Virus record (IMG/VR): IMGVR_UViG_3300042691_023867
Coordinates: 1-27,803 of that record
DNA from: a virus
DNA length: 27,803 nt
Direction: 5' to 3' (one strand)
In this document: positions 7,618 through 27,300 of the stretch, piece after piece
Position numbering within the stretch: position 1 is the first letter of the stretch
Layout: each line of letters starts with the position of its first letter
Position numbers and translations under genes: made by a program
The notes under the pieces: model-generated
Databases searched by the model: none
What the model was told of the DNA's origin: nothing
What the model saw: only the letters and a program-made list of their open reading frames with translations

Positions 7618-9647
7618 GACTCCACCTCATTGGCCAGACGCATGACCACCCGCCGCGTGTTCCCGTCCATGAAGCGCCAGGGATCGGCGGGCCGCCGAAT
7701 CCCGGTGGCCATGACTCGCGTCGTGGTCTTCCCACTGGTGAGCCCGTGGCGAACGTGCCCGACCGAGCCGAAGGGCTTCAGGTCGGGATTCATGTCCACC
7801 GACACCGGACCAGATCGCGTGTCCGGCGTGTCCGAGAGGCCCGCGTAGAACTCTTTGGCGTAGGCAAGCGCGACGTTCTGTACGTCCTTGGCGTTGACGA
7901 GCAGTTCGGACGGGCGCGGGTCACCGCGCAGAATCGAGCCCTTGATTGCCTCGGCCTGCTCGTCCGACCATGCGAACCTAGCCGTCATGATCCCGGGCAT
8001 GACGCGCACGTAGGCAATGGGGCCGTCCCCGTCGGTGCCCGCCTCGCCGGCAGACACAACGACGCGGTGCAGCCGCCCGAGCGTGTTAGGGGACGCGGGC
8101 ACGACCGTGAGCACGGTCGCCACCTGGAAGTCGTCCGTCAGCTTGACGCGCGCCCACTGCGCGAAGGCGTCTACCCCGGTGCGGTTCGCGTCTGCGTCGC
8201 CCGAGTTGCCTGGGACCTGCGTGTTCTCCGGGTAGCCCAGCAGGATTGCGTCGGAGATACCCCACGGGTCGAGCTGGGGCTCAATGCGAATGACGCCAGC
8301 GGTCTCACTGACGACGGATACGGTGGCCGGGGCCGCGACGCAGTCCGCGAGGAGCGTCGAATAGCCGCGGTCGTACCACCCATAATCGCTCGACTCGATG
8401 AAGCCCTTGGCCTGGGGGTTCTTCTTGTTCGGGCGGCGCAGGAAGTCGCAATAGGCTTCCGATCGCGCGCGGGTGCCCGTGACGGGGTTCAGCACGGCCA
8501 CGCGGCTGGCCCGGATCGAGGCGATACGCTGGACGAAGGACTCGTCGATCTGCCAGAGTCGCCGCCACGAGTTCACGGCCGCTCGAGCGCGCCCGCCGCT
8601 GACGGGGTCGTAGGTCTGGCCGCCGGGGCTGCGGCTGTAGAGTTGCTCAATGACCGACGCCGCCGCGCCGTAGTCCGCGAGCTTGGAGAACGAGAGCGCC
8701 TCACTCAGCAGGCCGAACGAGCCCCAGGTATCGAACAGCGTGGAGAGCGCCACGTAGGTCCCGCGCGCGACCGTCTGCCCGGTGGACAGGGTTACCGTGA
8801 GATCCGGGGAGGGCGCGACGTTCACGAGCGTGGGTGTGTCTCGAACGCGCGTCCCGCCCTCAGCCTGGGAGTCGAAGCGGCACTCAACCTCGGGAGTGAA
8901 CAGGACGGCTACGGCCGACGGGCGCAGCGCCTTGCGCGACGTCATGACCATGTCGCCGCCCAGCCCGACGTGCTTGCGCGCGAGGCCCTCGGGCGCTTCC
9001 TGGACGGCCTTGAGCGCGTCAAAGACGACCGCGGTGCCGTCGTAGTCAATGAACAGGTCGGCGCCGGGCAGGTAGCCCAGCACGCGCTCTACGGCGTTGT
9101 GGCCCCAATCCTCGATCTCGAGGTCCTGGATTGGCGTCTCCGGCGGTTCGTCTGCGAATCGGTAGGGCTGCTCAAGCTGCTGGAAGACGAACTCCAGGAC
9201 GCGGCGCGCAGTCCAGACAATCGCCCCGTCGTCGGGCGGGTCAAGGCTCCACTTCGCGTAGCGGATCACCGGATCGAGTTGCGCCAGTTCGATCGGCTGC
9301 CCGGCCTCGGTCTGGAGGCTCGACTCACCCGCGATCCGACGCACGTTGAACGACGACGACACCCAGCGGCGCGCCCACAGCCAGCGCCGGTCGGCCACTC
9401 GCACCACGCGCTGTTGAGGCCGGGACGCCGCGCCCACGTCGAGGGCGTAGACGTGCTCCACCTTGAGCGGCTTGGCTACGTTGTCCGTCTCGAGCGTCAG
9501 CGGGACGCCCAGGGGCAGGTCATGCGCGCGCTCTGCCGTGAGCGTGTAGGACATCTCCGCGTGCCGCGTCCCGCAGACGAGGTCCCACGGGTAGTCGCTC
9601 GCACCACCCAGGACAACGCCGCCCAATCGGACGACGGGCGTGCTCAC
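7614..9647 (-). CDS. Probable tail hub / baseplate-like protein
   Basis: The 677-residue protein has no signal peptide or membrane helix and alternates beta-rich and helical stretches. The N-terminal region (about residues 1-110) has barrel-like strands resembling hub modules of tail tips. A central part (about residues 270-420) has helical segments and an SRSPGGQTYDPVSGG loop. The C-terminal 120 residues include repeated hydrophobic strands. I do not see peptidase or lysozyme motifs. Its size and place between the smaller distal tail protein and the fibre gene match the hub that joins tail tube to fibres. The GTG start gives a GTGA overlap with its upstream neighbour. The family assignment rests mostly on gene order. 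Confidence 0.55.
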   Translation of the reverse strand: MSTPVVRLGGVVLGGASDYPWDLVCGTRHAEMSYTLTAERAHDLPLGVPLTLETDNVAKPLKVEHVYALDVGAASRPQQRVVRVADRRWLWARRWVSSSFNVRRIAGESSLQTEAGQPIELAQLDPVIRYAKWSLDPPDDGAIVWTARRVLEFVFQQLEQPYRFADEPPETPIQDLEIEDWGHNAVERVLGYLPGADLFIDYDGTAVVFDALKAVQEAPEGLARKHVGLGGDMVMTSRKALRPSAVAVLFTPEVECRFDSQAEGGTRVRDTPTLVNVAPSPDLTVTLSTGQTVARGTYVALSTLFDTWGSFGLLSEALSFSKLADYGAAASVIEQLYSRSPGGQTYDPVSGGRARAAVNSWRRLWQIDESFVQRIASIRASRVAVLNPVTGTRARSEAYCDFLRRPNKKNPQAKGFIESSDYGWYDRGYSTLLADCVAAPATVSVVSETAGVIRIEPQLDPWGISDAILLGYPENTQVPGNSGDADANRTGVDAFAQWARVKLTDDFQVATVLTVVPASPNTLGRLHRVVVSAGEAGTDGDGPIAYVRVMPGIMTARFAWSDEQAEAIKGSILRGDPRPSELLVNAKDVQNVALAYAKEFYAGLSDTPDTRSGPVSVDMNPDLKPFGSVGHVRHGLTSGKTTTRVMATGIRRPADPWRFMDGNTRRVVMRLANEVES

Positions 9648-11023
9648 GAGTTGAACCCGAGCGGCGGCGTGGTGCGGACCTGGCTCACGAGCCCGCCGCC
9701 CGACGTGGACGTGCTCGAGATGTTCACCTTGCGGAACACGAAGGTGTGAGTGACGGCCTCAAGCGGGATCTGGTCGCCCGTGATCCCTTCCGCCGTGCGC
9801 GTCTCTCGCCGCTGCTGCTCGATCTCACGGAAGCCCGGGAAGGCAGGGATACCGCGCCGCGGGTCAATCGTCGTGCCCTCGCGGACGACGGTGTCCCGAA
9901 TCACCGTCTTGATATGGACGGCGGGCACCTTGTAGAGATCCACTTCGTAGGGGTCGCCCGACCAGACAGGGGCGAACTCCTCGCCGGGCCGAATGAAGTC
10001 CTCGGCCGTCAGGACGGCGCGGAAGAACTCGGCGCCAGCGTCGGCGGCGCACTCCATGACCGCGGAGATTCCGTTGCCGGTCCGGTCCGGTGCATACCGC
10101 TCGCTGGTCACGACCACCGTGCCGCCGGCCACCAGGTTGGCCTCAGCCAGCATGAGGGGCCGAATCGTGCCGGTGTAGAGCGCGACGAGGTCCGTCGTGG
10201 AGTTCTTGTCGATCTCGGCGCTGTAGTTGACTCGCAGCCGGTCGAGCGGGCGCGAGTTGAACTCCGAGGACGAGTCGTCAGTCGGGATCAGGCGCTCAAT
10301 CGAGAGGTTCGGGCGCTTGATAGCCGCGTTGTCCGTCTCAGAGAGGCTCTGGCGGTAGATGACTTCCTGGTAGACGCGGCGGAAGCTGAGGACGCGGTTC
10401 TGGTCGTCGTACTTGAACCCGGCCGCGGCGGCGATTCCGCTCCCCGAGTTCACCGGGGTGAGCAGCTCGTAGGTCCCGCCCACCGCCGTGATGACCGCGT
10501 CACAGTAGGTCGTGCCGGCAGAGACGTAGACCGCCGTGGCCGTCGGGGTGCCCGACACCGCCGTGTAGGTCCCCTCAATCGTGACCGTGCGCGCACCGTT
10601 GGGGCCGGCGTCCACGCTGACCATGGACGTCTGGCGGCCGCTTCGGCCAGAGAGGTCGGCGGGCAACTGGACCGTAACACTGATGCGGTACCTGGCGGAA
10701 TTCGCGGTGTCTTCTTCGCGGCCAAGCTTCTCGCATGTGGCTCGACTGTTGAAGCCCGTTCCAGATGCTGCCGCGAACGAATGCCGGTTCGTGCCCCCGA
10801 GCTCGACGTCTAGGTCCTGGTCGGGCGCCCGGAAGGCCGCGATGAGCGCTGCCTCTGCGGCCAAAAAGGTCGATCTGGTCGCGGACCTCACCACTACGGT
10901 GGCGGTGAAGTTGAACTCGGTATACCCGTATGCACAGGTGTACTTGTCCGTGAGCGTGATTGAGGCGTCCCCGCCAAGTCCCAGGGTTAGGCCCGCGTAG
11001 GACACCTTAATCAGCCTGGCCAT
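9644..11023 (-). CDS. Distal tail / tail-tip structural protein
   Basis: The 459-residue protein is almost all predicted beta-strand, Thr/Val/Ala-rich, with an N-terminal MARLIKVSYAGLTLGLGG segment. A central Ig-like stretch (about residues 135-195, TVTIEGTYTAVSGTPTATAV and onward) follows, and the tail is Ser/Thr/Gly-rich. It lacks catalytic motifs and hydrophobic membrane segments. It lies between the short tape-measure candidate (with an HNH gene inserted) and the hub-like protein, the usual position for a distal tail protein. The ATG start directly abuts the TAG of the HNH gene. The Ig-like part is inferred from strand pattern only. Confidence 0.6.
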   Translation of the reverse strand: MARLIKVSYAGLTLGLGGDASITLTDKYTCAYGYTEFNFTATVVVRSATRSTFLAAEAALIAAFRAPDQDLDVELGGTNRHSFAAASGTGFNSRATCEKLGREEDTANSARYRISVTVQLPADLSGRSGRQTSMVSVDAGPNGARTVTIEGTYTAVSGTPTATAVYVSAGTTYCDAVITAVGGTYELLTPVNSGSGIAAAAGFKYDDQNRVLSFRRVYQEVIYRQSLSETDNAAIKRPNLSIERLIPTDDSSSEFNSRPLDRLRVNYSAEIDKNSTTDLVALYTGTIRPLMLAEANLVAGGTVVVTSERYAPDRTGNGISAVMECAADAGAEFFRAVLTAEDFIRPGEEFAPVWSGDPYEVDLYKVPAVHIKTVIRDTVVREGTTIDPRRGIPAFPGFREIEQQRRETRTAEGITGDQIPLEAVTHTFVFRKVNISSTSTSGGGLVSQVRTTPPLGFNS

Positions 11024-11779
11024 CTATGGCGCCCCATTGCGGCGCACGTATTCCGGCGCCTCCCGCTCGAGCCGGGCGCGCAACTCTTCGCTCGGGCGGA
11101 ACAGATGGGCAAGGACGTCGTCGTGCTCCATGTAGTGCCGGGCGGCATTCAGTGCCCAGATCACCCAGCGGAGGTTGCCGAGATCGTTGGTCCCACCGGC
11201 GCTCACCGGGATGATGTGATCCACAGACGGCTGCAGTGGGTGGCGGCGCTGGTAGCGAAAGTCGAGTGGGAGCCCCGTAACTGCGCAGCGGAAGCCCTGC
11301 GCCTGAAGAATGGCGTAAAGTTGTTCGCCCGTAACGGGCGTACCGCGACTGCTGACCGCAAAGCGGATGCGCTTGCACGCGGTGAGCGGGTCGCGGCGCC
11401 GCGCCCGCGCATTTTCCAGATCGCGCGCGTGCGCGTCCGGGTCTGCGCGCCGCGCCTTCGCCCACGCCTTCGCCCGCACCTGCTCGCGGGCGCGATATTC
11501 CGGGTCTTGGTAGAGCCTGCGCGCCAGTTCCCGGGCTCGCTTCCTCTCCTTGTCAACGAATTGCGGGTCGGCCCTGCGCTCGCGGTAGGTGGCCCGCTTG
11601 CGCATGCGCTCCTTTGGCCGGTAGTTCTCCTGTTCGCGGCGCATCACCTCGGGTCGCGCGCGGTTGATCCGCTGAAGTTCGTTCTTGCGGTCACGCTCGC
11701 GGCGCCACTCCGTGTGGTTCAGCAAGTCGGCCAACTCGTCCACGCTCATGTCGGAAGAGATAGCGCCCGGGCACGACAT
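11024..11779 (-). CDS. HNH endonuclease with long basic helical N-terminus
   Basis: The 251-residue protein has a very Arg/Glu-rich N-terminal 130 residues (repeated RRADP and REQ-type segments, probably one long helix that could bind DNA). The HNH core follows: CAVTGLPLDF, then SVDHIIPVSAGGTNDLGNLRW (about residues 189-209), with the DH pair of the metal site and the Asn of the NLRW motif. It inserts between the tape-measure candidate and the distal tail gene, overlapping one (TGATG) and abutting the other. It belongs to a third HNH subgroup, different from the two in the lysis region. A homing endonuclease is the likeliest role. Confidence 0.82.
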   Translation of the reverse strand: MSCPGAISSDMSVDELADLLNHTEWRRERDRKNELQRINRARPEVMRREQENYRPKERMRKRATYRERRADPQFVDKERKRARELARRLYQDPEYRAREQVRAKAWAKARRADPDAHARDLENARARRRDPLTACKRIRFAVSSRGTPVTGEQLYAILQAQGFRCAVTGLPLDFRYQRRHPLQPSVDHIIPVSAGGTNDLGNLRWVIWALNAARHYMEHDDVLAHLFRPSEELRARLEREAPEYVRRNGAP

Positions 11780-16575: not shown

Positions 16576-17622
16576 TTACCTCGCCGCCGGCACGCCGCGG
16601 AGGGCAGCGGCGGCACTGTTGATGACCTTGTCCGGCACGAGGCCCGCGGCCTCGGCCTTGTAGTAGGCGGCCAGCGTCTCGGCGCTGCCGAAGATCTCGC
16701 GGACCATGGGGTCGGCGGCGAACTCGGCCTTGGCGCGCTCGACGGGGGACAGCTTGGAGGTGTCGGAGCCAGCCGGGGCCTCGCGGTCCGGGCCGAAGCC
16801 GAGGCCGGGGTGGTCGGCCTTGTTCTTGAGCGTGTCCAGCGTCGCGCTGGCCGTGGGGGCCGCCGGGGCGACCTTGGCCGCCTTGAGCTCCTCCTGGAGC
16901 ACGGGGACCAGGGCCGCGAGCGCCGCCGTGGCCGTCGCGCCGCTCTTGAACTGCTCGAGCACGAACGCGGGACGGTCGGGGATCGCCGTGAGCAGCGCGC
17001 CCAGGTTGCCCATGAGCGCCTCACGCTCGGCCTTGGCGCCCTCGGCCTTCCAGGCGGTGACCGCCGCGGGATTGGCGGCGGCGAACTCGTCCGCGGTCAT
17101 GAGAGTCTCCTCAGCGAGCGCGGCGGCGCTCGTGTTCTTGTCTGCGGGGTTGGCGGTGACGAAGCTGGTCTCGAACAGCGAGACCTTGCGCCAAATGGTC
17201 AGGGGGCCCGACACGTCGCGGCCGTTGCACTTCGCGGTCTGGCCGTCGTCCAGTTTCTGGACGTCGTCGATGCGCGCGCCGATCGAGGCCGTGAGCGGAA
17301 AGCCTGAGTCGCTCAGGTTGGCGACGCGCTTGCCGGCGGGCTCGTCCTCGATCAGTCGGCCCGAGAGCTCGAGGCCGCGCGAAGTCAGCTCGCACTTGTC
17401 GGCGTAGCCAACCACCGCGTTCTCGTCGTGGTTCAGGAGGATCGGGAGCTTCGTTGGGACCGTGATCCCGTTGAGGTCCGCGACAGCCTTGCCGTAGAGG
17501 CGCTGCACCTCGGCGCCCGTGTAGGCCAGCATGTGGAAGCGACGGGGCTCGCCAGCGGACGCGCCCTTGAGCACGTCCACCGAACCCGTCAGCTTCACTT
17601 CTCGCTCGGCCACGATTGCCAT
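16576..17622 (-). CDS. Prohead protease fused to scaffold-like C-terminal region
   Basis: The 348-residue protein has an N-terminal protease domain (about residues 1-165). The likely catalytic His65 is in ILLNHDENAVVG and Ser113 in PLTASIGA, with an acidic third member in or near LFETSFVTANPADKNT (residues 149-164). The C-terminal half (about residues 170-345) is Ala/Glu/Lys-rich and helical, like an internal scaffold that the protease would later cut. Fused protease-scaffold proteins are well known. The ATG start faces the divergent region; only a weak AGG precedes it. It processes scaffold and capsid before DNA packaging. The catalytic assignments come from motif context. Confidence 0.8.
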   Translation of the reverse strand: MAIVAEREVKLTGSVDVLKGASAGEPRRFHMLAYTGAEVQRLYGKAVADLNGITVPTKLPILLNHDENAVVGYADKCELTSRGLELSGRLIEDEPAGKRVANLSDSGFPLTASIGARIDDVQKLDDGQTAKCNGRDVSGPLTIWRKVSLFETSFVTANPADKNTSAAALAEETLMTADEFAAANPAAVTAWKAEGAKAEREALMGNLGALLTAIPDRPAFVLEQFKSGATATAALAALVPVLQEELKAAKVAPAAPTASATLDTLKNKADHPGLGFGPDREAPAGSDTSKLSPVERAKAEFAADPMVREIFGSAETLAAYYKAEAAGLVPDKVINSAAAALRGVPAAR

Positions 17623-17722: not shown

Positions 17723-17956
17723 ATGGCGTTTGAAAATGTGAGCACCTCCGACCTGGAGACGCTCCAAACCAACACGCTCGCTTCCCTGAATCGCTCGCTG
17801 AATGCCGAGGGCTACGGCATTGGCTCGCGCAACCTCCAGCGCGCGAGCATTGGCGCCCTGTCCAAGCTCCTCGCAGAGATCAGCGAGGAACTGGCCCACC
17901 GCACGGACCAGACGGGCGGTATCGGAGTCGTGGAGATCGGAGACGAGCCCTCGTGA
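17723..17956 (+). CDS. gpW-like head-completion protein
   Basis: The 77-residue protein is small, helical and acidic, with LETLQTNTLASLNRSLNAEG, YGIGSRNLQRAS and LSKLLAEISEELAHR. It resembles gpW-type head-tail completion proteins, which consist of two helices and a hairpin and are often encoded just before the portal. ATG at 17723 is the first good start; no strong ribosome-binding site precedes it. GTGA overlap couples it to the portal gene. It is encoded on the strand opposite to the rest of the late genes, as is the portal. Sequence similarity is modest, but size and position support the call. Confidence 0.6.
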   Translation: MAFENVSTSDLETLQTNTLASLNRSLNAEGYGIGSRNLQRASIGALSKLLAEISEELAHRTDQTGGIGVVEIGDEPS

Positions 17957-19434
17957 GCTTTGCCGATCGCCTGGACAGCGCCATTGGCGCCCTGTTTCCC
18001 GCTTGGGCCGCAGACCGGAAGGCGGCGCGCCTCGAGGCCGCCGCCATGGAGACACTCTCCAACTACCGCGGCGCGTTTCACTCGCGCGTTGACCGCTCGG
18101 CCCCGGCCCTTCGCGGCGCCGGCCCCGACTGGACGCTCGAGCGCGAGTATGACCGCCGGGAAATGGTGGACCGCGCCCGCCAGCTCGAGCAGAACTCAAT
18201 CCTTGCTGAAGCCATGCTCTCGCGCGCCACTGAGTCGGTGGTCGGCGTCGGCTTCGCCCTCCAGAGCAAGACGGACGACGACGGCTGGAACGAGGCCGCC
18301 GAGGCGCTCTGGAAGGAGTGGACGCCACAGGCCGACGTGCGCGGGCTCTGCTCGTTCGACGAGCTAATGGCGCTCAAGTACCGCTCTTGGCTCCGCGACG
18401 GGGATGCCGGAACGGTCAAGCTCTCCAGCGGCAAGCTGCGCCTGGTGGAGTCGGACGAGATCGCGAGCCCCGAGGGCTACGGGATTCACGACGGCAGCAT
18501 GGTGGACGGCGTCGAGCTTGACGCCATGGGGAAGCCGCGCGCCTTCCACGTCATTTCGAACCCGCGCAAGTTGATCGTGGAGCGCCGGGCCGAGTTCGAC
18601 CGCATTCGCGTCCCCGCCCAATACGTCGAGTTCCTCGCGCGCCGGCACCGTATCGGCCAGACGCGCGGGCTCTCTGCGTTCAGCGGCACCGCGTGGATTC
18701 TGGACCAGATTGACGGGAACATCGAAGCCGTCACCGTCGCGGCCCGCATGGCCGCCTGCCTCGGGCTCGTCCTGAAGCGCAAGACGCGCATGACGGGCCT
18801 GGCCACGACGACGGGCGCGGATTCTATCGCGCGCAAGAAGCTGCGTCTTGAGCCCGGGTCGTTCATGGAAGTGGAGCCCGACGAGGACATCACCACCGTC
18901 CAGGGTCAGCAGCCTCACACCAACTTCTCGGACTTCATCCACTTGCTGGCGCGCATTGCGTCCGTGGCCTTCGGCCTCCCGGTCGAAATCACGCTGATGA
19001 ACTTCGAGAAGACGAACTACAGCAACGCGCGCGCGGCGCTCCTCCAAGCGTGGAACGTCTGGCGCATCCACCAGCGCATGCTCAAGGGCTACGCCTCCCG
19101 GGTCTACACCTGGAAGCTGATCTCGTGGATGGAGGCCGGCCTACTGCCGGTCCGCGAGGACGCCTTGCGCCACTCGTGGATCGCCCCGGGCTGGCAGTGG
19201 CTCGATCCGGTGGCCGAGGTCCAGTCGAACCTGGCGGCGGTTGACGCCGGGTTCCGCACTCGCGCCGATATCGTCATGCAACTCGGCGGGGACTTCGAGG
19301 AAGTCATGCAGGCCCAGCGCCGCGAGCTGGCCGCCATGGAGGCCGCCGGGGTCAAGGTCGTCCACTCGACGCTGACCCGCGACCCGATCCCGGAGCCCGT
19401 CGAGGCCCCAGGCGAGTCGCCGCCGACCGACTAG
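17953..19434 (+). CDS. Portal protein, lambda gpB-type
   Basis: The 493-residue protein matches the lambda portal family. An N-terminal helical region includes an LEREYDRREMVDRARQLEQN segment (about residues 62-81), followed by SILAEAMLSRATESVVGVGF. The stem/clip part contains GQTRGLSAFSGTAWILDQID (about residues 236-255). An FGLPVEITLMNFEKTNYSNA segment (about residues 339-358) and a tunnel helix follow. Length fits the family. It forms the dodecameric ring through which DNA is packed and the tail attaches. GTG start overlaps the gpW-like gene by 4 nt. Its stop shares the palindromic CTAG with the convergent zinc-ribbon gene. Only this gene and its partner run rightward. Confidence 0.9.
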   Translation: MSFADRLDSAIGALFPAWAADRKAARLEAAAMETLSNYRGAFHSRVDRSAPALRGAGPDWTLEREYDRREMVDRARQLEQNSILAEAMLSRATESVVGVGFALQSKTDDDGWNEAAEALWKEWTPQADVRGLCSFDELMALKYRSWLRDGDAGTVKLSSGKLRLVESDEIASPEGYGIHDGSMVDGVELDAMGKPRAFHVISNPRKLIVERRAEFDRIRVPAQYVEFLARRHRIGQTRGLSAFSGTAWILDQIDGNIEAVTVAARMAACLGLVLKRKTRMTGLATTTGADSIARKKLRLEPGSFMEVEPDEDITTVQGQQPHTNFSDFIHLLARIASVAFGLPVEITLMNFEKTNYSNARAALLQAWNVWRIHQRMLKGYASRVYTWKLISWMEAGLLPVREDALRHSWIAPGWQWLDPVAEVQSNLAAVDAGFRTRADIVMQLGGDFEEVMQAQRRELAAMEAAGVKVVHSTLTRDPIPEPVEAPGESPPTD

Positions 19435-19688
19435 ACCGCCGGCACCTTGAACGTCCGCAGGTTGCCGTGGTCGTCGGTGCAGTCCTGGCAGACGAAGTAG
19501 GCCACCGGGTCTGGCGTCCCGCCGTTCCTCAGCGCGTTGGAGTGACCGCAGTGCGGGCACGTCACTACCCGGCGCTTGACGTAGACCTGCTGCACCACTC
19601 GCACCACCATGGGGGTCGAGGGCTCAGCAGTCACCGGCGGCAGCGGGGCGGGCTTCGCCGCCGGCTTCTTGCGCGCCATGCGGATCAC
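19431..19688 (-). CDS. Zinc-ribbon protein of unknown role
   Basis: The 85-residue protein has a basic, Pro-rich N-terminus and a four-Cys zinc ribbon, CPHCGH then CQDC, separated by about 20 residues. Zinc ribbons of this kind bind nucleic acid or organise protein contacts. The GTG at 19688 gives a GTGA overlap with the coiled-coil gene (an ATG at 19679 also fits). Its 3' end abuts the convergent portal gene, with overlapping stop codons in one CTAG. No homologue is recognised. Confidence 0.6.
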   Translation of the reverse strand: MIRMARKKPAAKPAPLPPVTAEPSTPMVVRVVQQVYVKRRVVTCPHCGHSNALRNGGTPDPVAYFVCQDCTDDHGNLRTFKVPAV

Positions 19689-20257
19689 AGCGCCAGCGCG
19701 GCAGCCATGGCCGCGTTGTAGGCGGCGCGGGCCTTGTCGGCCGTCGCCTTCGCCGCGTCGAGCGCCTCGCGCGCCTTGACCTCGGCCAGTTCCGTGGCCG
19801 CCATGGCCGCCTCAGCACTGGCGATCTCGGTGCGGACGTCGTTCGCGTTGCCAGACCCGGCCGCCAGACGCTCCTTGAGGCCCTGGACGTGGGAGCGCCC
19901 GCTGCGCACTTCCTGAGTGGCGAGTTCGTGCGAGCGCACCGCGGCGCGCTCGGCCCGCTCCGACTCCGACACGGCCATGCGCAGTTCGCGCGCGACGTAG
20001 TCCCGGCGCAGCTCGTCGAGGGCCGCCCCCGCGCGCTTGAGCGCAGAGCGGAGCTTCGCCGCCTCGTTCCGCAGCTTCGCGCTCTCGTCCTCGAAGCCGC
20101 GCCGCCGCCGCTCCTCGGCCTCCTGGCGCTCGCGCAGCTTCACGACGAACGCCTTGAGGTCGGCGTTGGCCTTGTCGTGATTCGCGGCCACCTTGGCCAG
20201 TTCGATCCGCTTCGCTTCCTTCGCACTCGTCGTGGGGGGCGCCAGTTCGGTCGCCAT
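19685..20257 (-). CDS. Coiled-coil protein of unknown role
   Basis: The 190-residue protein is almost entirely charged coiled coil (about residues 15-175) rich in Ala, Glu, Lys and Arg. Segments include LRERQEAEERRRRGFEDESA and SAEAAMAATELAEVKAREAL. There are no cysteines, membrane helices or enzyme motifs. The ATG at 20257 is preceded by a strong GGAGGTGG ribosome-binding site that overlaps the radical SAM stop; an upstream GTG at 20263 is too close to it. It is encoded between the radical SAM gene and the zinc-ribbon gene, so it may be a scaffold-like or structural helper rather than an enzyme. Confidence 0.6.
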   Translation of the reverse strand: MATELAPPTTSAKEAKRIELAKVAANHDKANADLKAFVVKLRERQEAEERRRRGFEDESAKLRNEAAKLRSALKRAGAALDELRRDYVARELRMAVSESERAERAAVRSHELATQEVRSGRSHVQGLKERLAAGSGNANDVRTEIASAEAAMAATELAEVKAREALDAAKATADKARAAYNAAMAAALAL

Positions 20258-20267
20258 AACCACCTCC

Positions 20268-21416
20268 CTAAATGAAGTTCCGGTGTATCCCCGGGTCGTC
20301 CGCAGCGATTGCAGCCACGGATTCCGGTGTCATGGAGATCAGATCAAGGGCGCGCTTGTTCCGCCTCTCGTAGAGGCAGGGCACCTTGCACACTTCGCGC
20401 GCGTCGTGGCCAGCGAACATGGCGCGGACCTCGTCGGACTCCCACAGGTCACGGAACGAGCGGTCAGCGATCGAGCCGACCAGCCCGAGCGGGTTGAAGG
20501 CCAGCGTGCAGCAGTTGTAGACGCGCTGGTCCCCACCGACGACGCACAGGACTTCCTTGGCCGCGCAGAGTTCGTAGTCCTGGACCTGGGCCGCGATGTT
20601 GTTCGCGCGCTCACTCACGAGGTCGTTGACCTGGAGTCGGCCCGCGAAGTCATGCGCCGCCTTCTGTGCCTGCGCGCCGGCCTCCTCGAGCGCGCCCGCA
20701 GGGAAGCGGTTCAGGTGGGCCGGGGTGAACGCGAGTGCTACGCGCACGTTGTCGGCGCCGCGCTCGAGGGCCAGCCGGCACGCCTCATACACGCCGTCGT
20801 AGTTCGTGCGGTCCACGACGTAGCCGACTCCAACCCGCTGCTCAGGGTCGCGCCGCCGCAAGGAGAGACGCTCTACCGCCATCCACGCCTGGTCCCACTG
20901 GATACGGGAGACGCGCCGAGTGGCCACATACTGCTCGCGAGTGCCGGCGTCGATCGAAACGCGCGCCCACTTCCAATTCGTGCGCGCGAAGCGGTTGGCC
21001 CGGTGCTCGGTGAGCGCCGTCCCGTTCGTCACCAGTCCGACGTCTACGCCCCAGTCGGCGGCCAGCCACAGGAACTCGTCAATGTGGGGCCAGATAAGGG
21101 GCTCGCCGCCCCCGGTGATCTCGACGGCCTTGACCCCCATGGCGCGCCAGTCCGCCACGAGCTCGCGCATTTTGTCGGCCGGCATGAAGTCGTCCGACAT
21201 GAGGGCGTGATTCTTCCAGCCACGCTCCTCGGGCGGGTCGCTCTCCAGTCGGTGACCGTAGCTGCAGAAGCCGCAGTGTTGGTTGCATGCCAGTGAGGGC
21301 ATGAAGTGGATCTGAGTCGGGGACTGGTGCCGCCGCGCGCGGAGCGCCTCGAGGGCTTCCGGGTGGTGGACTAGCTTTTGGGTGCTATACGGCTGCGCCG
21401 CCGGGAGGGCCTTCAC
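20268..21416 (-). CDS. Radical SAM enzyme with extra C-terminal cysteines (SPASM/twitch-like)
   Basis: The 382-residue protein has the canonical CNQHCGFC cluster motif (Cys44, Cys48, Cys51), which holds the 4Fe-4S cluster that cleaves S-adenosylmethionine. TGGGEP at 101-106 binds the SAM amino group. Further cysteines at 284, 291, 302, 303, 343 and 347 (CAAKEVLC, NCC, CKVPC) suggest an auxiliary Fe-S cluster of SPASM or twitch type. Such enzymes modify peptides, sugars or nucleotides. The GTG start has little ribosome-binding site and lies 24 nt after the glycosyltransferase stop. It is the only redox enzyme of the cassette. Its substrate is unknown; neighbours suggest a glycan or glycosylated protein. 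Confidence 0.87.
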   Translation of the reverse strand: MKALPAAQPYSTQKLVHHPEALEALRARRHQSPTQIHFMPSLACNQHCGFCSYGHRLESDPPEERGWKNHALMSDDFMPADKMRELVADWRAMGVKAVEITGGGEPLIWPHIDEFLWLAADWGVDVGLVTNGTALTEHRANRFARTNWKWARVSIDAGTREQYVATRRVSRIQWDQAWMAVERLSLRRRDPEQRVGVGYVVDRTNYDGVYEACRLALERGADNVRVALAFTPAHLNRFPAGALEEAGAQAQKAAHDFAGRLQVNDLVSERANNIAAQVQDYELCAAKEVLCVVGGDQRVYNCCTLAFNPLGLVGSIADRSFRDLWESDEVRAMFAGHDAREVCKVPCLYERRNKRALDLISMTPESVAAIAADDPGIHRNFI

Positions 21417-21440
21417 TCTGGGCCAGAGATTACGCCGGTA

Positions 21441-22199
21441 CTACGACAAGGCCCGACGGACTGCGCTCTCTGGCAGGTCATCTGCACAACGAACCCACTC
21501 GTATGGGCGCGACTCTGGAGAGCCCCCATACCAGTGAACCCCGTATTCCCGGGGCTCAATCCGGCCGGGCTGCCATATGGCGCGCACGTCAGGGGCCGAG
21601 GAGCCACGGTAGAATGCCCGGAACGGGATAGATCCCAGTCGAGAGCCCGCCGCGAGTTCTTCCCAGTGCGCCACTAGGAGTCGCGTCCCGTGGCTCTGGT
21701 AGTCGGTGGCGTCATGCGTCCACTCGCACCAATCGGCGGCCCGCAGGAAGAAGCGCGCGTCACCGCGGGCCGGGTGTGCGGCCAGGACTCCAATCGACAC
21801 GCCAGAGGGCCTCTTCCCGAGTGCCGGCCCTTGGTAGGTCCACTTGGCCCCCGGGTAGTAGGTCCCGCCGTCCAAAGTCAGCCATGCGTCGTAGTCGCCA
21901 TCGAAGAGGGGCTCTACGTTGCGCGTGAACAACACGTCGGTATCGGCGTAGAACCCGCCCAGCTTGGCCAGGACGTGGTAGCGCCACCAGTCGGAGCGAG
22001 CTGCTGGCGGGAGCCCGTCTCTGGTCACGTCATCTGGGAGCCACTGGACTCCGGCCGGGAGTGGGCGCGCGGGTGGCTCCGGAGAGCCTATGTAGACTTC
22101 CCAGTCCGGGTGGTGCCGGCGAAAGGTCACCAGGGACTGCTCACGCAGCCAGGACATGGGCGGGCCGGTCCAGTAGAAGAAGGCGCGCCGGGGGATCAG
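21441..22199 (-). CDS. GT32-like glycosyltransferase (DxD sugar transferase)
   Basis: The protein of about 252 residues starts near IPRRAFFYWTGPP, matching the IP-x(2-4)-W opening of DxD glycosyltransferases. It has an AARSDWWRYHVLAKLGG helix followed by FYADTDVLF with the metal-binding DxD (about Asp86 and Asp88). These GT-A enzymes transfer a sugar from a nucleotide-sugar. No ATG/GTG/TTG lies near the conserved start. A CTG at 22199 follows AGAGGG by 4 nt and makes a CTGA overlap with the upstream stop, so I chose it. A GTG at 22289 would add 30 non-conserved residues; ATG at 22157 would remove the conserved IP motif. Confidence 0.75.
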   Translation of the reverse strand: MIPRRAFFYWTGPPMSWLREQSLVTFRRHHPDWEVYIGSPEPPARPLPAGVQWLPDDVTRDGLPPAARSDWWRYHVLAKLGGFYADTDVLFTRNVEPLFDGDYDAWLTLDGGTYYPGAKWTYQGPALGKRPSGVSIGVLAAHPARGDARFFLRAADWCEWTHDATDYQSHGTRLLVAHWEELAAGSRLGSIPFRAFYRGSSAPDVRAIWQPGRIEPREYGVHWYGGSPESRPYEWVRCADDLPESAVRRALS

Positions 22200-23062
22200 A
22201 AAGCCCTCTTCGCCAGTTCCCTGACCGCCCCCACCAGCAGCGGGACCGACTCGGGCTCGGCGCTGAAGCGCTGCCCCGGCGAGGCCCACGAGTAGGCGAA
22301 GTCGCTTCCGCGCCGCTCGAGCGCGCCCCCGTAGCGGTCCAGGTGCGGCCCCATGTCTGAGGCCGGGAAGAAGTAGGGTGCCGTCCCGAGCATGGCCACC
22401 GCGCAGGGGCCGGACGGCGAGCCGATATGGGCCTTGCTCCGGTGGACGAGCGCGAGGTCCTGCAGGAGAGTCGTCCCGTGGTCCTTGGCGAACGCCGCGC
22501 CCGGGACGCCGCGCATTCTCTCGCTGGCCTCGTGGGCCTCACCGACCACCAAGAACGTCAGCCCCAGCGACTCAAGCGCGCGCGAGTCGAGGGCCGCCCA
22601 CCAGGTGCATGGGTCGTGGTTTCGGTGCCTGTGGTGCGAGGCCGTCCGGAGGTTCACCGTGACGACTCGCGGGCCGCACTTCGCCAGGAAGTCGTCGGCC
22701 CACTTGCACAACTCGGGCGAGAAGTTCAGCAGCGCATAGGGCGCGCGGCACTTCGCGATCGTCTGGATTGCCCGGTAGGTCTGATACTGCCCTCGCTCAG
22801 GGCTGCCTCGGGAGTGGATAGAGACCGAGCCCAGGTCATGCACGAGCTCGAACAGCGGAAGCAGCTTCCCCAGGGACTCCATGGGAGCCGCGTGGGCCGC
22901 GCGCATGTTCTCGTCTTCGTGCTGGACTCGGGAGTCAGCGACGAGCACTACGTCTACCCATCTCCCGTCTGCTTCGGCGTTGGCCGCCGCTATGGCCAGG
23001 AGGGTGTCCCCGATTGAGTAGGGCTGGACGCTCATGTCCAGGGTGAGGGTGTGCCTAGGCAT
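22196..23062 (-). CDS. GT-B-like glycosyltransferase
   Basis: The 288-residue protein begins MPRHTLTLDMSVQPYSIGDT, a Rossmann-like opening. The C-terminal part has VVTVNLRTASHH, LTFLVVGEAHEA and a GSPSGPCAVAMLG motif that resembles the nucleotide-sugar-binding half of GT-B transferases of the heptosyl/fucosyl type. There is no DxD, as expected for GT-B. The ATG at 23062 lies just before the TAG of the upstream small gene (ATGCCTAG); translation further upstream looks like out-of-frame sequence. It is coupled to its neighbours by 4-8 nt overlaps. A sugar addition role is likely, but donor and acceptor cannot be read. Confidence 0.6.
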   Translation of the reverse strand: MPRHTLTLDMSVQPYSIGDTLLAIAAANAEADGRWVDVVLVADSRVQHEDENMRAAHAAPMESLGKLLPLFELVHDLGSVSIHSRGSPERGQYQTYRAIQTIAKCRAPYALLNFSPELCKWADDFLAKCGPRVVTVNLRTASHHRHRNHDPCTWWAALDSRALESLGLTFLVVGEAHEASERMRGVPGAAFAKDHGTTLLQDLALVHRSKAHIGSPSGPCAVAMLGTAPYFFPASDMGPHLDRYGGALERRGSDFAYSWASPGQRFSAEPESVPLLVGAVRELAKRAF

Positions 23063-23282
23063 CCTCGGCCCCGGTCTCGAACTCGAGCGCCCACTCCTCG
23101 GGGTTGCCGAACAGCGAGCACGGCTTGCCGACGCGATCAAGGAATGCGTTGACGTGCGGCACGTCCGTGAACGGCTCTGAGGGATATGACTTCATGTACC
23201 ACCCGGTCGACGGGTAGTATTTCGCGATCATCACCTTCTCGCCGGTCGGCTTGTGCAGCAGATACATCCGGTTGTTAGCCAA
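23055..23282 (-). CDS. Small uncharacterised protein within glycosyltransferase cassette
   Basis: The 75-residue protein contains a basic, aromatic-rich N-terminus (YLLHKPTGEKVMIAKYY), a GWYMKSYP turn and an acidic C-terminus, probably a small alpha/beta domain. I do not recognise it. A TTG start at 23282 is chosen because GAGGAGGGGG lies directly upstream and the open frame overlaps the GT2 stop by 8 nt; ATG five codons downstream is possible. It sits between two glycosyltransferase genes and is probably co-translated with them. Confidence 0.55.
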   Translation of the reverse strand: MANNRMYLLHKPTGEKVMIAKYYPSTGWYMKSYPSEPFTDVPHVNAFLDRVGKPCSLFGNPEEWALEFETGAEDA

Positions 23283-23964
23283 GCCCCCTCCTCTTCCTCG
23301 CCTCTGCCTGCCAGTGGTGCGCGTCGAACTCGTGCGCCCGGGTGACCGTCACCCGCTTGTCATGGGCGTTGTACCAGCACAGCGGATAATCGACGCCGAC
23401 GATAGGAAGCCCTCGCTTCCAGCAGACCTCCTCGACGCGCAACCAGTGGTCGTAGTCATGGCTGATCTTCCCTCGGTGCGGGCCCGCCTCGAGCCAGACG
23501 TCCTTGCGAATGAGGAACGCCGGTCCGAAGTAGCAGTTGACGTCCGCGATCAGTCGGGCCGGGTCGTAGGGCTTGAACAGGTATTGCACACGCTCGGGGG
23601 TGCAGTGCCAGAAACCACCATAGGCCACGCCGGCCCCGTCCGCGATCTGGTCGGACAGAATGCCAAGCGCGCACTCGTGCATGACGTTGTCCGACGAGCA
23701 CCAGGTAAGCGCCTCGACGTGGGCCGAGAAGGTATCGACGCCACGGTTGATCGCCCCCGCCGTGCCCTCGTTCTTCCTGGACTCGACGGTCCAAAAGTCG
23801 TCCGGGTAGGCCCGCGCGAAGGTGGCGATCACCTTCGGCGTGGCGTCGGTTGACCCGTCGTCAACGACGCACACGCCGTCATGGTCCATGGCAAGCACCG
23901 ACGCCAGCGCCCCCGGGAGCCACTGGGCCTGGTTGTAGGTCGGCATCACGACTCCGACTCTCAT
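23275..23964 (-). CDS. Family 2-type (GT-A) glycosyltransferase
   Basis: The 229-residue protein starts RVGVVMPTYNQAQWLPGAL, the classic GT2 opening. VVDDGSTDAT (about residues 33-42) binds the nucleotide, SSDN (about residues 90-93) occupies the DxD position, and HDYDHWLRV (about residues 169-177) resembles the acceptor/catalytic helix. It is soluble, with no membrane helices. The ATG at 23964 gives an ATGA overlap with the upstream 71-residue gene, preferred over 23982. GT2 enzymes transfer sugars with inversion to polysaccharides, lipids or proteins. Its company with other transferases suggests a multi-sugar product. Confidence 0.85.
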   Translation of the reverse strand: MRVGVVMPTYNQAQWLPGALASVLAMDHDGVCVVDDGSTDATPKVIATFARAYPDDFWTVESRKNEGTAGAINRGVDTFSAHVEALTWCSSDNVMHECALGILSDQIADGAGVAYGGFWHCTPERVQYLFKPYDPARLIADVNCYFGPAFLIRKDVWLEAGPHRGKISHDYDHWLRVEEVCWKRGLPIVGVDYPLCWYNAHDKRVTVTRAHEFDAHHWQAEARKRRGLG

Positions 23965-24176
23965 GTGCCAGCCTTCGGCCAAAGCACGTCGGCCATCTTC
24001 TGGCGCAGCGCGAAGCGCGCCCTGTCCTCCGCGATGTCGATCTCGATACTCGCCGGCACTGGCTTGACCGACTGGACGCGCTTGATCATACGCAGCGCGG
24101 TGAGCACGGCCTCAGCGTCCTCATCGCGCAGGTCGCAATCCAACGTCACCAAGAACCCCGCCACGCGCTCGCTCAC
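23961..24176 (-). CDS. Small conserved-looking phage protein
   Basis: The 71-residue protein MSERVAGFLVTLDCDLRDED... has a strand-helix-strand pattern (GFLVTLD, then AEAVLTALRMIKRVQSVKP) and a C-terminal helix ending in ADVLWP. This small type, with an opening like SERV-x-GF-V-TL and a central EAV-x-LR-MIK segment, is met in many unrelated phages without assigned function. GTG at 24176 overlaps the upstream stop by 4 nt (GTGA). A role in the cassette itself is not implied. It could be a regulatory or binding subunit. Confidence 0.6.
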   Translation of the reverse strand: MSERVAGFLVTLDCDLRDEDAEAVLTALRMIKRVQSVKPVPASIEIDIAEDRARFALRQKMADVLWPKAGT

Positions 24177-24766
24177 ATCACCCTCTTTCCCGCCCTCACG
24201 TCCCTCGACGCTTGGGTGTGCTCAATCACTGGAGCCCTCGGCCCGCCCCACCTCGGTTCAGCCATGAAGTCTACCCAGCAGTACTCTGCCGGGAGCGAGC
24301 CCACTACCGCCCCTGCGTTCTCTGCGGCCCACTTCGCCGCCCGTCCCATGAGCACCTGATCCCACTCCTCTGGGCACTCTTCGCAGAGCATGGCCCAGCG
24401 GTGCAGGAACGTAGACGCCCCTACGTTCGGGTCAGGCGCGACCCACACCGTTCCGCTCAGCACTTCCTTGGTCTTTGGGACCGTATGGAAGGCCAGAGAG
24501 GCCCCGAGCTCATGGGCCGCGTCGAACAGGTCGGGGACGCTTCGGACGATTGCGTCAGCGTCGATCCACGCCACAGGGCGGCCCGGGTGCGCGGCCCGGG
24601 CCTTAAGGAGCGCCTCGGGCTTGATGTGGCCGTTCTTCGTCCAGTCGCCCGACGAGTCGTATGGCACGGCGAGGAGGTCCACCCCGTGCGCGATACACGA
24701 CGACTCCAGCCGAATTCGGAGGTCGGAGTAGCCCGGGGTATAGGCCGTGACGGCCAGCGTCCGCAC
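24173..24766 (-). CDS. DxD GT-A glycosyltransferase-like protein
   Basis: The 197-residue protein begins RTLAVTAYTPGYSDLRIRL and has a central WIDADAIV motif (Asp69 and Asp71), the metal-binding DxD of a nucleotide-diphospho-sugar transferase fold. A VWVAPDPNVGASTFLHRWA segment and an acidic CPEEWDQ helix follow, as in proteins annotated as nucleotide-diphospho-sugar transferases. GTG at 24766 overlaps TAG of the upstream gene (TAGTG) with a strong GGAGGAGG ribosome-binding site upstream; the longer reading is out-of-frame overlap. Sugar specificity is unknown. Confidence 0.7.
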   Translation of the reverse strand: MRTLAVTAYTPGYSDLRIRLESSCIAHGVDLLAVPYDSSGDWTKNGHIKPEALLKARAAHPGRPVAWIDADAIVRSVPDLFDAAHELGASLAFHTVPKTKEVLSGTVWVAPDPNVGASTFLHRWAMLCEECPEEWDQVLMGRAAKWAAENAGAVVGSLPAEYCWVDFMAEPRWGGPRAPVIEHTQASRDVRAGKRVM

Positions 24767-25428
24767 TAGAGCACCTCCTCCGCTAGACGCTTCTCCCAGC
24801 AGTCCAGCCGACTGCTCCCTTGATACGTCTCTAGGACGACAACACGCGCGCGCACCTTCGTGGCCGCCCACCGGAATGCCTCGAGGTAGCGGTCATACAG
24901 AGACTCATTCGCCGGCTTCGTGTGGGTGTAGCCGTCGTGCCAGTTCGCCGTGACTCCGTTCTCTCCCTTCAGGTCGAACCCAAGGAGGTAGATCGGGTCG
25001 GCGCCCAAGATGTCCGCGAGGTTCAGGGCCGCGAAGCCGCTGTTTCCTCCGCACCCGACTCCCTCTTCTAGAGACCGGCCCCACGCAAGGGCGCTGTGCG
25101 GGTTCGGGACTCCCTTGGCTGCGCACGGGAGGATCAGGTCAACGCTGGGCTTCTTGTCCCCAGTGTCTACCCAGACACGAGGCGCGCCGGACGTTACCCG
25201 CCCACTCGCGTCGGGCAGCCACCGCGCTGGCTGCTTGCGCCAATACACAGAGTCCATGGCCAGCCACAGGTCTGGCTCCAGGAACTCGGCGGCGCGGTTC
25301 ACGGAAATGCACTTCGTCCCCGCGTCACAGAGCCTCTCGGCGCGCGCCCAGTCGAATCCCCTGAGGCTCGGCCCTCCCCCTACGATCACGCAGGGGGAGC
25401 CAGACCACATGCCGTCACGAAGGGCCAT
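24766..25428 (-). CDS. DUF115/MptE-like protein, possible sugar transferase or surface-sugar enzyme
   Basis: The 220-residue protein has CVIVGGGPSLRG at residues 13-24, then the pattern NSGFAALNLADILGADPIYL (about residues 129-148) followed by LGFDL. This is the signature of DUF115 proteins (6-hydroxymethylpterin pyrophosphokinase MptE-like). Related Maf proteins attach nonulosonic acids to flagellin; in phages the function is undefined. ATG at 25428 overlaps the upstream gene by 14 nt; ATG at 25410 is an alternative. Position among transferases supports a glycan role, but a nucleotide-related reaction is equally possible from the family. Confidence 0.7.
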   Translation of the reverse strand: MALRDGMWSGSPCVIVGGGPSLRGFDWARAERLCDAGTKCISVNRAAEFLEPDLWLAMDSVYWRKQPARWLPDASGRVTSGAPRVWVDTGDKKPSVDLILPCAAKGVPNPHSALAWGRSLEEGVGCGGNSGFAALNLADILGADPIYLLGFDLKGENGVTANWHDGYTHTKPANESLYDRYLEAFRWAATKVRARVVVLETYQGSSRLDCWEKRLAEEVL

Positions 25429-25798
25429 CGGAGCACTCAGGCACGCAGTCGGGACCGCCGCAGTTGTCCGCGATGCTCAGTCCAGACGCCTCGATCCAGT
25501 GCGCGATCTCTTTCAGCGTCACCCTGCCGAAGTTGCGGCACTTCAGGTGATACAGGCACACCTTGGAAACGCTCTCCGGGCTGACTTGCCAAAGCCCGTC
25601 CGGACTCATTCGGCCAAACCCGGCACTCTCCAGGCACCTCCCGGCGCGCACAGACAAAGGCCTCCGCTCCCGCGGCGCATCTGGAACCGCAGGGGCGGGC
25701 CACAGGAGATTCGCCACGTTTAGCGCCACCTGCGGTTCCATCTTCGACTCAATGCAAAGCCGCAGCGCTGCCTCTCGAATCCACTCATCGCGCTTCAC
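25415..25798 (-). CDS. Small protein with RNA polymerase alpha-CTD-like helix-hairpin-helix domain
   Basis: The 127-residue protein has a helical N-terminus (about residues 1-35) and a Pro-rich linker. A domain at about residues 48-110 then reads LSVRAGRCL ... KCRNFGRVTLKEI ... GLSI. This matches the RNA polymerase alpha subunit C-terminal domain (E. coli LTVRSANCL, then NLGKKSLTEI): the key Arg is kept, the Asn beside the Cys has become Arg, and Lys-Ser has become Val-Thr. It lacks the alpha N-terminal domain. It may bind UP-element-like DNA or RNA polymerase to steer late transcription. GTG at 25798 has AGGAGG 6 nt upstream and a GTGA overlap with the terminase gene. The C-terminal Cys-rich tail is unexplained. 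Confidence 0.7.
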   Translation of the reverse strand: MKRDEWIREAALRLCIESKMEPQVALNVANLLWPAPAVPDAPRERRPLSVRAGRCLESAGFGRMSPDGLWQVSPESVSKVCLYHLKCRNFGRVTLKEIAHWIEASGLSIADNCGGPDCVPECSDGPS

Positions 25799-27300
25799 CA
25801 CCCACCTCCTCTACCCCTACCGTCCCACCAATCCCCACCGCCGCCCCACGGGCTAGGCTCAATCTCGTACTCAATCCCCCTCGTGCCCAGCATGTCGTTG
25901 AACACTCGGACCGCGTAGGCTACGACGTCAGCGACGTCCTTGTAGCGGCCCGCCGGGAACTGCAAGAGCTCGGCCTCGACGTCCGGGAGCCACGCCGCTC
26001 CCTCTGCGAAGAAGAACCGGCCGCCTTCCATGAACGCGACCGCCGGGTGCGCGCGACTGACCTTGTCCTTGTCTGCTTCCAGCGCCCTCACTGGAATACC
26101 CTGAGACACCGCCACCTGGAGCAGGTGCAAGTGCCATGCGGTCTTCTCGGCGTGGAGCTGGTAGCCGTCCTGGTGGAGCCTCTTGAGCGTCGAGAGGATC
26201 GCCGGCCCGTCCATTTGCCCGCGACTCAGTCCGACCATGAAGAGCCGCTTGTATTGCAAGTCGGCCAGGAAGCACCCGAACGCGCTGGTATCCGCGTACG
26301 TCTTCTCCACTACAGCCAGGTCCGCGGTGACGAACGGGATCAGTCCAGCCCGCGCCAGTGGCTTGGCCCCGCCCGGCACTTCGATATGGTCCGCGAAGAC
26401 GCGGGCGTAGCGGAAGTGCTCCCGCTTGTAGATCGCGCCGTCTGCCCCCGTAGGCCGTCCCTGGTAGAGCGAGGCCCAGGTATGCGCGTCTCGGGCCTTG
26501 ATCCGCTCGAGCTCCTCGAGCGGGAACAACTCCGGGCACAGTGGCTCCCCGGGCTTCCTTCCCATGGGGTCGTCGGCCTCGGCAATGGCCGGGAGGCGAA
26601 TGATCTTCCAGCCCTCCTTATCCAGTCCGCGCGCCTTCCTGTCCTCAAGGCGCCCGATCGGGTCGTCATGGTGCCACCTCGTGGCGATCATTGCGGCCTT
26701 GCCGGTCTTGGTGAGGCGCGTCAAGGCCACCTTCATCAGCCAGTTCCAGGTCTTGTCCCGGATCGTCTGTGACTGGGCCTCCTCGTCGTCCTTCAGCAAG
26801 TCGTCGAGAATGAGCAGTTCGGCCCGCTTCCCGGTCACCGGGCCGCCCCGGCCGACCGCCCGGAGGTAGCCCGACCGCTTCGAGCGCTTCGCTACAGCGT
26901 CCCAACGGTGGACGTCCCACGCCTCCGACTTCGCTCGGGGGCTGACTTCGACTCCGAAGACCTCATTCCCGTGGAGCGCGAGCAGTTCTTTGCTGACTTT
27001 CGACCATTCCAGGGTCAAAGAGGCCGCGTAGCTGGCCTGAATGACTCGCGCGCCCGGGTTGACCCCGAGGAACCATGTCACGAAGAACTTGGAGAGAAAC
27101 TCCGACTTCCCGTGGCCGGGGGGCACCGAAAGGGCCATATAGCGGTCTGGGCCGCGCAAAAACGAGTCAATCTCCTGGCAAAGCCACCGAAGCCAGGCAT
27201 AGGGCACCCAGGCGCCCTCAGAGGCGTAGATCCCCCACAGCGCAGGGTGGCTCTTGGCCGCCTCTGGGGACGGCAAAACGAGGCCTTCGGCTGCCGCCAT
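25795..27300 (-). CDS. Terminase large subunit
   Basis: The 501-residue motor protein contains a Walker A motif VPPGHGKSEF (residues 59-68) and Walker B LLILDD (residues 162-167) with following acidic residues. IATRWHHDD (about residues 205-213) is the coupling motif. The C-terminal RNase H-like nuclease has TADLAVVEKTYADTS (residues 325-339, Asp327) and KDVADVV (about residues 454-460). It pumps DNA into the prohead and cuts it. The C-terminus is Gly/Trp-rich. ATG at 27300 lies 3 nt after the TAG of the small subunit gene. It is followed directly by the alpha-CTD-like gene, the first gene of the accessory cassette. Confidence 0.92.
   Translation of the reverse strand: MAAAEGLVLPSPEAAKSHPALWGIYASEGAWVPYAWLRWLCQEIDSFLRGPDRYMALSVPPGHGKSEFLSKFFVTWFLGVNPGARVIQASYAASLTLEWSKVSKELLALHGNEVFGVEVSPRAKSEAWDVHRWDAVAKRSKRSGYLRAVGRGGPVTGKRAELLILDDLLKDDEEAQSQTIRDKTWNWLMKVALTRLTKTGKAAMIATRWHHDDPIGRLEDRKARGLDKEGWKIIRLPAIAEADDPMGRKPGEPLCPELFPLEELERIKARDAHTWASLYQGRPTGADGAIYKREHFRYARVFADHIEVPGGAKPLARAGLIPFVTADLAVVEKTYADTSAFGCFLADLQYKRLFMVGLSRGQMDGPAILSTLKRLHQDGYQLHAEKTAWHLHLLQVAVSQGIPVRALEADKDKVSRAHPAVAFMEGGRFFFAEGAAWLPDVEAELLQFPAGRYKDVADVVAYAVRVFNDMLGTRGIEYEIEPSPWGGGGDWWDGRGRGGGW

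Follow-up and report, generated by a model that had tools for sequence, protein, structure and literature searches.

What does a bacteriophage build with a radical S-adenosylmethionine (rSAM) enzyme and several glycosyltransferases (GTs) encoded beside its terminase and portal genes? The question is raised by a 27,803-base IMG/VR virus record, IMGVR_UViG_3300042691_023867 (67.6% GC), the whole of which is called the window here; L-numbers (L034, L096 and so on) label the other loci with which it was compared. An initial annotation described a cassette of an rSAM enzyme with extra cysteines, a GT2, a GT32-like, a GT-B-like and a DxD GT-A protein, a DUF115/MptE-like protein and small partners. 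Our analysis bears out five of these assignments, namely the rSAM, GT2, GT32-like, DUF115-like and DxD GT-A proteins, and identifies an ordered core of them that is common to four phage types. We consider it quite possible, at not far below an even chance, that the cassette encodes a cytosolic pathway that builds and radically tailors a glycan on a virion protein. The features concerned are as follows, in nucleotide positions of the window.

25795..27300, minus strand: large terminase subunit (TerL), the upstream border of the cassette (phrog_38, 4.4e-80)
25415..25801, minus strand: 128-aa protein overlapping TerL by 7 nt (weak, sub-cutoff RNAP-alpha-CTD-like matches only)
24766..25428, minus strand: DUF115/MptE-like, GT42-sialyltransferase-like protein (PF01973, 1.9e-5, sub-cutoff; phrog_4603, 1.7e-16)
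24173..24766, minus strand: DxD GT-A glycosyltransferase with IDADA motif and GTG start at 24766 (by homology to the L034 fusion)
23961..24176, minus strand: 71-aa small protein (no relatives found)
23275..23964, minus strand: GT2 glycosyltransferase (PF00535, 1.9e-18)
23055..23282, minus strand: 75-aa small protein (no relatives found)
22196..23062, minus strand: 288-aa open reading frame (ORF), earlier called GT-B-like (no family match)
21441..22199, minus strand: GT32-type glycosyltransferase with ADTDV motif (PF04488, 4.6e-8)
20268..21416, minus strand: twitch-type rSAM enzyme, 382 aa (PF04055, 2.4e-15)
19685..20263, minus strand: 192-aa coiled-coil protein (weak coiled-coil matches only; no relatives found)
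19431..19688, minus strand: 85-aa zinc-ribbon-like protein (weak zinc-ribbon matches below cut-offs)
17953..19434, plus strand: lambda-type portal (phrog_21, 1.3e-68; 34% identity to the L096 portal)
17723..17956, plus strand: gpW-like head-tail adaptor (phrog_118, 0.0054; weak match to the L096 gpW)
16576..17622, minus strand: head maturation protease (phrog_3244, 1.3e-16)

The core, in the order [DUF115-]DxD GT, GT2, rSAM, with other genes intervening between GT2 and rSAM, is common to the window, L034/L035, L096 and L111. It lies between TerL and portal in the window and L034/L035, and between the major capsid protein (MCP) and neck genes in L096 and L111. L034 and L035, which are 99.97% identical to each other and among the best neighbourhood matches of the window, read on a single strand TerL, a fused DUF115+DxD protein, GT2, a DNA methyltransferase-like gene, GT32, rSAM, gpW-like, portal, protease and MCP. 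L096 reads TerL, gpW, portal, protease and MCP, followed by DUF115-type, DxD GT, GT2, GT-like, rSAM and neck genes; L111 resembles it (TerL, gpW, portal, protease, core, neck), with the DUF115-type piece after the rSAM instead. The DUF115-type parts of L034, L096 and L111 match no Pfam family and were assigned by sequence and position. The two domains are fused both ways, DUF115 leading in L034 and DxD leading in L085, and the rSAM proteins of L034, L096 and L111 are 30-36% identical to that of the window. Since the core is placed differently in the late operon across phages, it appears to move, order intact, between late-operon sites. The neighbourhood is thus kept together in related phages, one of the points on which the initial annotation had made its proposal turn. 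The methyltransferase-like gene of L034 (5046-6326, also in L035), between GT2 and GT32, shows a DPPYG motif by eye.

To sample rSAM relatives more broadly, genomes were scanned with six rSAM sequences, a 24-row rSAM alignment being too diverse for scanning. This yielded 296 viral stretches encoding relatives (not dereplicated), and the top 80 were retained. In many phages the rSAM neighbours GTs, methyltransferases and structural genes. It lies with other sugar enzymes between TerL and portal in L011, L013/L023 and L081/L082, the last pair reading TerL, GTs and methyltransferases, rSAM, portal, with rSAMs 46 and 44% identical to that of the window. Elsewhere a relative occurs between portal and neck (L028) or between MCP and tail (L009, L039), and it accompanies differing sugar genes in L033, L017, L025, L038 and the huge phage LR756501. 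A bacterial metagenome-assembled contig, L059, carries DUF115-GT-rSAM-methyltransferase-rSAM-GT32-GT2 between MCP-like and neck-like genes, the flanking genes being named from sequence appearance alone. Scans for close relatives returned one locus with the window rSAM (L002), three distant loci with TerL and none with the portal; L002 was rejected as an rSAM relative, as it encodes a QueE-like protein with a superfamily match only. In the L013/L023 group, L029, L031, L040 and L041 the rSAM is flanked by pairs of split E1-type thiamine-diphosphate enzymes (PF00676 and, close to its cut-off in L013, PF02779) and by GT-like proteins with an HLGD motif; these partners suggest that the same rSAM is here surrounded by another phage pathway, for a sugar or a ketoacid.

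The great variety of partner genes among phages is what would be expected of a general moron island, in which unrelated sugar genes with no single product are kept by chance gene flow. Such an island would not account for an ordered core in four phage types, for fusions in both orders or for intact catalytic motifs (DTD, DAD, DDG and GGGPSL are all present in the cassette proteins), and we give it a small chance.

The rSAM enzyme offers the closest view of the chemistry. Its SPASM match lies just above threshold (PF13186, 21.7 bits, cut-off 21.5), CX3CX2C lies at residue 44, and the auxiliary site reads C284-X17-C302-X40-C343-X3-C347. Both the CX3CX2C and the four-Cys auxiliary motif are kept in 26/26 rSAMs examined; the first auxiliary spacing is X17 in all but four, where it is longer (X24 in L031, where a Cys pair with a distance of 17 is present too, and X22 in L043, L044 and L046). 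A test for the seven-Cys SPASM motif failed: past residue 200 only C284, C302 and C347 are invariant, together with the C343 position, and the aligned rSAMs have no conserved AuxII Cys set. The extra cysteines of the initial annotation are present, and their pattern is of the twitch type, with a single auxiliary cluster, not that of a seven-Cys SPASM. In twitch domains, of which BtrN has one, SPASM is truncated to four Cys for a single cluster (PMC6231123, PMC9012708).

An AlphaFold2 (AF2) model of the rSAM built from 24 sequences (pLDDT 89, pTM 0.89) was ranked against known folds with VIA-align, giving SkfB (Z 27.2), BlsE (26.5, tied), DesII (24.1) and BtrN (17.7). SkfB is a maturase of ribosomally synthesized and post-translationally modified peptides (RiPPs) and acts on a peptide; the substrates of BlsE and DesII are sugars or a sugar nucleoside, and BtrN is an aminocyclitol dehydrogenase. 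The fold thus leaves the substrate undecided between peptide and sugar. BtrN, BlsE and DesII share with the window protein the fold and the rSAM motif, and BtrN also the single four-Cys auxiliary site, at just 16-18% identity over the aligned part. The NCBIfam equivalog cut-offs (BlsE, DesII, PqqE, MoaA) are far from reached, the best of any family scoring 63 against 265 bits.

With SkfB as its best fold match and small ORFs interspersed among its enzymes, the cassette might instead be RiPP-like, the rSAM modifying a ribosomal peptide or a virion or small protein (the 71-, 75- or 85-aa products would be the substrates) that the GTs then glycosylate. We find this improbable: the matches to BlsE and DesII are nearly as good as that to SkfB, the rSAM core starts at about residue 30 of the model with no RRE-like N-terminal domain, and nothing related to the small ORFs accompanies the rSAM relatives. 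Indeed, the 71-, 75- and 192-aa proteins lack relatives both in phage records and beside related rSAMs in the compared loci, so that the small partners of the initial annotation find no backing.

Three phage rSAM genes are interrupted within CX3CX2C by Hint/intein domains: L133 (8702-11011) at the second Cys, and L029 (8771-10894) and L142 (9650-11611) at the third. Their placement inside the motif suggests that the rSAM active site is functionally constrained. The inteins of L029 and L133 also contain a long ORF in another frame (9036-9869 and 8991-10031, respectively) with an 'NPDFR...KKxIE' stretch that resembles a nuclease motif by eye and matches no Pfam family; these are possibly out-of-frame homing endonucleases.

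Among the transferases, GT2 (PF00535, 67.4 bits against a cut-off of 23.3) and GT32 (PF04488, 34.1 against 23, with the DXD motif as ADTDV) pass their family thresholds, and are 44% and 26% identical to the GT2 of L111 and the GT32 of L034, respectively. Alignment with L034 indicates that GT32 probably starts at a CTG at 22199. The DUF115/MptE-like protein, a single domain of 220 aa, reaches 25.0 bits against the PF01973 gathering cut-off of 34.6, as the DUF115-type protein of L137 likewise stays below it (28.0 bits); phrog_4603, which it matches, is annotated 'alpha-2,3-sialyltransferase', and proteins of Caulobacter and Brevundimonas phages are 27-34% identical to it. The DxD GT-A has a weak Pfam match of its own (PF03407, 0.18) and was assigned through its homology (1.3e-22) to the fused protein of L034, which matches PF03407 at 5.5e-4; identity is 33% to the C-terminal half of that fusion and 36% to L096. 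The GT-B-like call (22196-23140) is not supported: the ORF at 22196-23062 has no Pfam, PHROG or NCBIfam match, no match in phage records and no viral relatives, a probability of 0.3% against the HLGD-motif GT-like family profile, and an uninformative single-sequence AF2 model (pLDDT 34).

None of the cassette proteins has a hydrophobic or membrane segment (KD19 maximum 1.29). A test for Gtr-type O-antigen conversion accordingly failed, since a cassette with no membrane segment encodes neither a GtrA flippase nor a membrane protein of the GtrC type; GT2 alone resembles GtrB families (phrog_841). Given the absence of membrane proteins, the chemistry of the cassette is probably cytosolic. These data bear on the main rival explanation, in which the cassette remodels a host surface glycan by acting on cytosolic precursors of lipopolysaccharide, capsule or glycoprotein, so blocking competitors or re-adsorption to debris. 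The authors of the pelagimyophage survey interpret the GTs of a structural-region island as host-surface modifiers (PMC7029224), and cellular rSAM relatives occur in surface-sugar loci: one of Magnetococcales has PseB and PseC nearby (both score above cut-off and are on the opposite strand), and wecB is a further neighbour gene in such loci. The cassette, on an incomplete contig, has no GtrA-type flippase, undecaprenyl-linked transferase or membrane protein, and expression timed with the virion would come late for the exclusion of other phages. We therefore hold surface remodelling to be rather unlikely, though well short of negligible.

The least probable reading is a glycosylated or hypermodified DNA base that shields the phage genome. 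Phage GTs can act on DNA, and rSAM enzymes are found in DNA modification clusters. Thymidylate synthase (PF00303), however, was detected in 1/21 related records searched, themselves incomplete, and was absent from the remaining 20 and from the scanned window genes. None of the GT32, DUF115 and DxD families is known to glycosylate DNA, which also counts against it.

On the virion-glycosylation reading, the cassette would be a soluble, cytosolic pathway of glycan assembly and tailoring, made late together with the virion proteins. The DUF115/GT42-like, DxD GT-A, GT2 and GT32 proteins would use host nucleotide-sugars to assemble a short glycan, and the twitch rSAM would oxidise, epimerise or otherwise rewrite one sugar, either as the free nucleotide-sugar or within the growing glycan. 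As the genes accompany virion genes in phage after phage, the likeliest acceptor is a virion structural protein, which would receive its glycan before the particle is assembled or while it is; the glycan may protect the particle or change how it binds the host. We infer the sugar substrate, the acceptor and the benefit, the first resting in part on the fold matches BlsE, DesII and BtrN being sugar or aminocyclitol enzymes. The PseB and PseC genes near the Magnetococcales rSAM relative count in favour of this reading too. The initial annotation had likewise proposed production with the virion, and hence modification of a virion protein or the host surface; the data are consistent with this, and the step to a target stays conditional. 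Maf proteins (PF01973), which O-glycosylate flagellin with nonulosonic acids and resemble the sialyltransferase Cst-II (PMC11339370), provide a precedent for the domain, and capsid glycosylation has been described for phages (Freeman 2023, as cited in PMC12691614).

Several points weigh against this reading. It is predicted from genes, among which no acceptor is recognised; nor does a late-operon position prove a virion target, because morons usually settle there too. The top fold match modifies a peptide, albeit tied with BlsE, and the PF01973 score lies under its cut-off. The rSAM and portal are no closer than chance (11 observed against 10.6 expected, with no enrichment over the contig-length expectation), a GT2 is found no more than 6 kb from the rSAM in 13/25 cases against 8.0 expected (P=0.016), a modest excess, and agreement of genes on one strand is common in phages anyway.

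Comparison with described systems places the cassette among partial likenesses. Phage virion glycosylation is already known, as are GT and rSAM genes in a structural-region island: pelagimyophages carry rSAM cassettes with many GTs there (PMC7029224). Like the window, this 'host recognition cluster' of pelagimyophages and cyanomyophages is a GT-rich variable island in which rSAM cassettes are gained and lost; unlike it, the island belongs to T4-like phages of 150 kb, between VrlC and gp14 and with tail fibres, whereas the window has a compact cassette adjoining TerL in a lambda-portal phage (PMC7029224). HTVC008M encodes a distant rSAM match. In the annotated podophage isolate ctQWt234 (MW202801), the stretch from MCP to the tail genes holds an rSAM of the same family with GT2 directly after it and, further on, PhyH, a methyltransferase, NodB and another GT; its partners differ (dioxygenase, deacetylase), and it has no DUF115-DxD pair. 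We know of no rSAM or DUF115 protein in the mycobacteriophage glycosylation system. There, glycans lie on virion proteins, as the secondary account has it (Freeman 2023, cited in PMC12691614), whereas for the window glycosylation is predicted from its genes. The window protein shares with the Maf flagellin glycosyltransferases a DUF115/Maf_flag10-type domain, which is Cst-II-like and in Maf acts on protein Ser/Thr, but differs in being single-domain and sub-cutoff. The initial annotation's statement that no described phage system has this exact content must therefore be narrowed to the ordered DUF115-DxD-GT2-rSAM core recurring at different late-operon sites, which seems new in the open-licence literature.

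The layout of the late region supports one further part of that annotation and revises another. The minus strand carries TerS, TerL, the protease, a capsid accessory protein and MCP as well as the cassette, whose ORFs overlap or are no more than 24 nt apart (checked against their ends and possible start codons), so that the proposed short-overlap linkage stands. Scans for terminators and promoters gave background level only. A late operon running from terminase to portal had been proposed; the co-oriented multi-GT/rSAM cassette is there, but gpW and portal (17723-19434) converge on it from the plus strand and are inverted relative to all neighbouring late genes. A gpW-like gene precedes the portal in the window, L034 and L096 alike, and rSAM and portal share one strand in 19/19 related contigs having both genes, which argues that the window arrangement is derived or an assembly fault. 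The ends of the inverted segment have no long, well-matched inverted repeats. No DNA-level copy of the junction was found in any other contig, and the orientation may be a real inversion or a misassembly. The tail-gene region also encodes an Endonuclease VII/HNH-like protein (11024-11779, minus strand).

Phage GTs are usually interpreted as modifiers of O-antigen or DNA. A conserved set of GTs and an rSAM in the virion operon of many unrelated phages would point to an unrecognised, widespread route to unusual sugars. In its boldest form, which we think possible but on balance unlikely, a mobile, order-conserved module (DUF115/GT42-like, DxD GT-A, GT2 and twitch rSAM, often with GT32) hops between late-operon sites of phages that are not related, and a virion protein receives from it a novel sugar tailored by radical chemistry. 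If true, this would be a new viral glycoprotein chemistry, and, if the virion is the target, it would be relevant to host range, to immune recognition of particles and to enzyme discovery.

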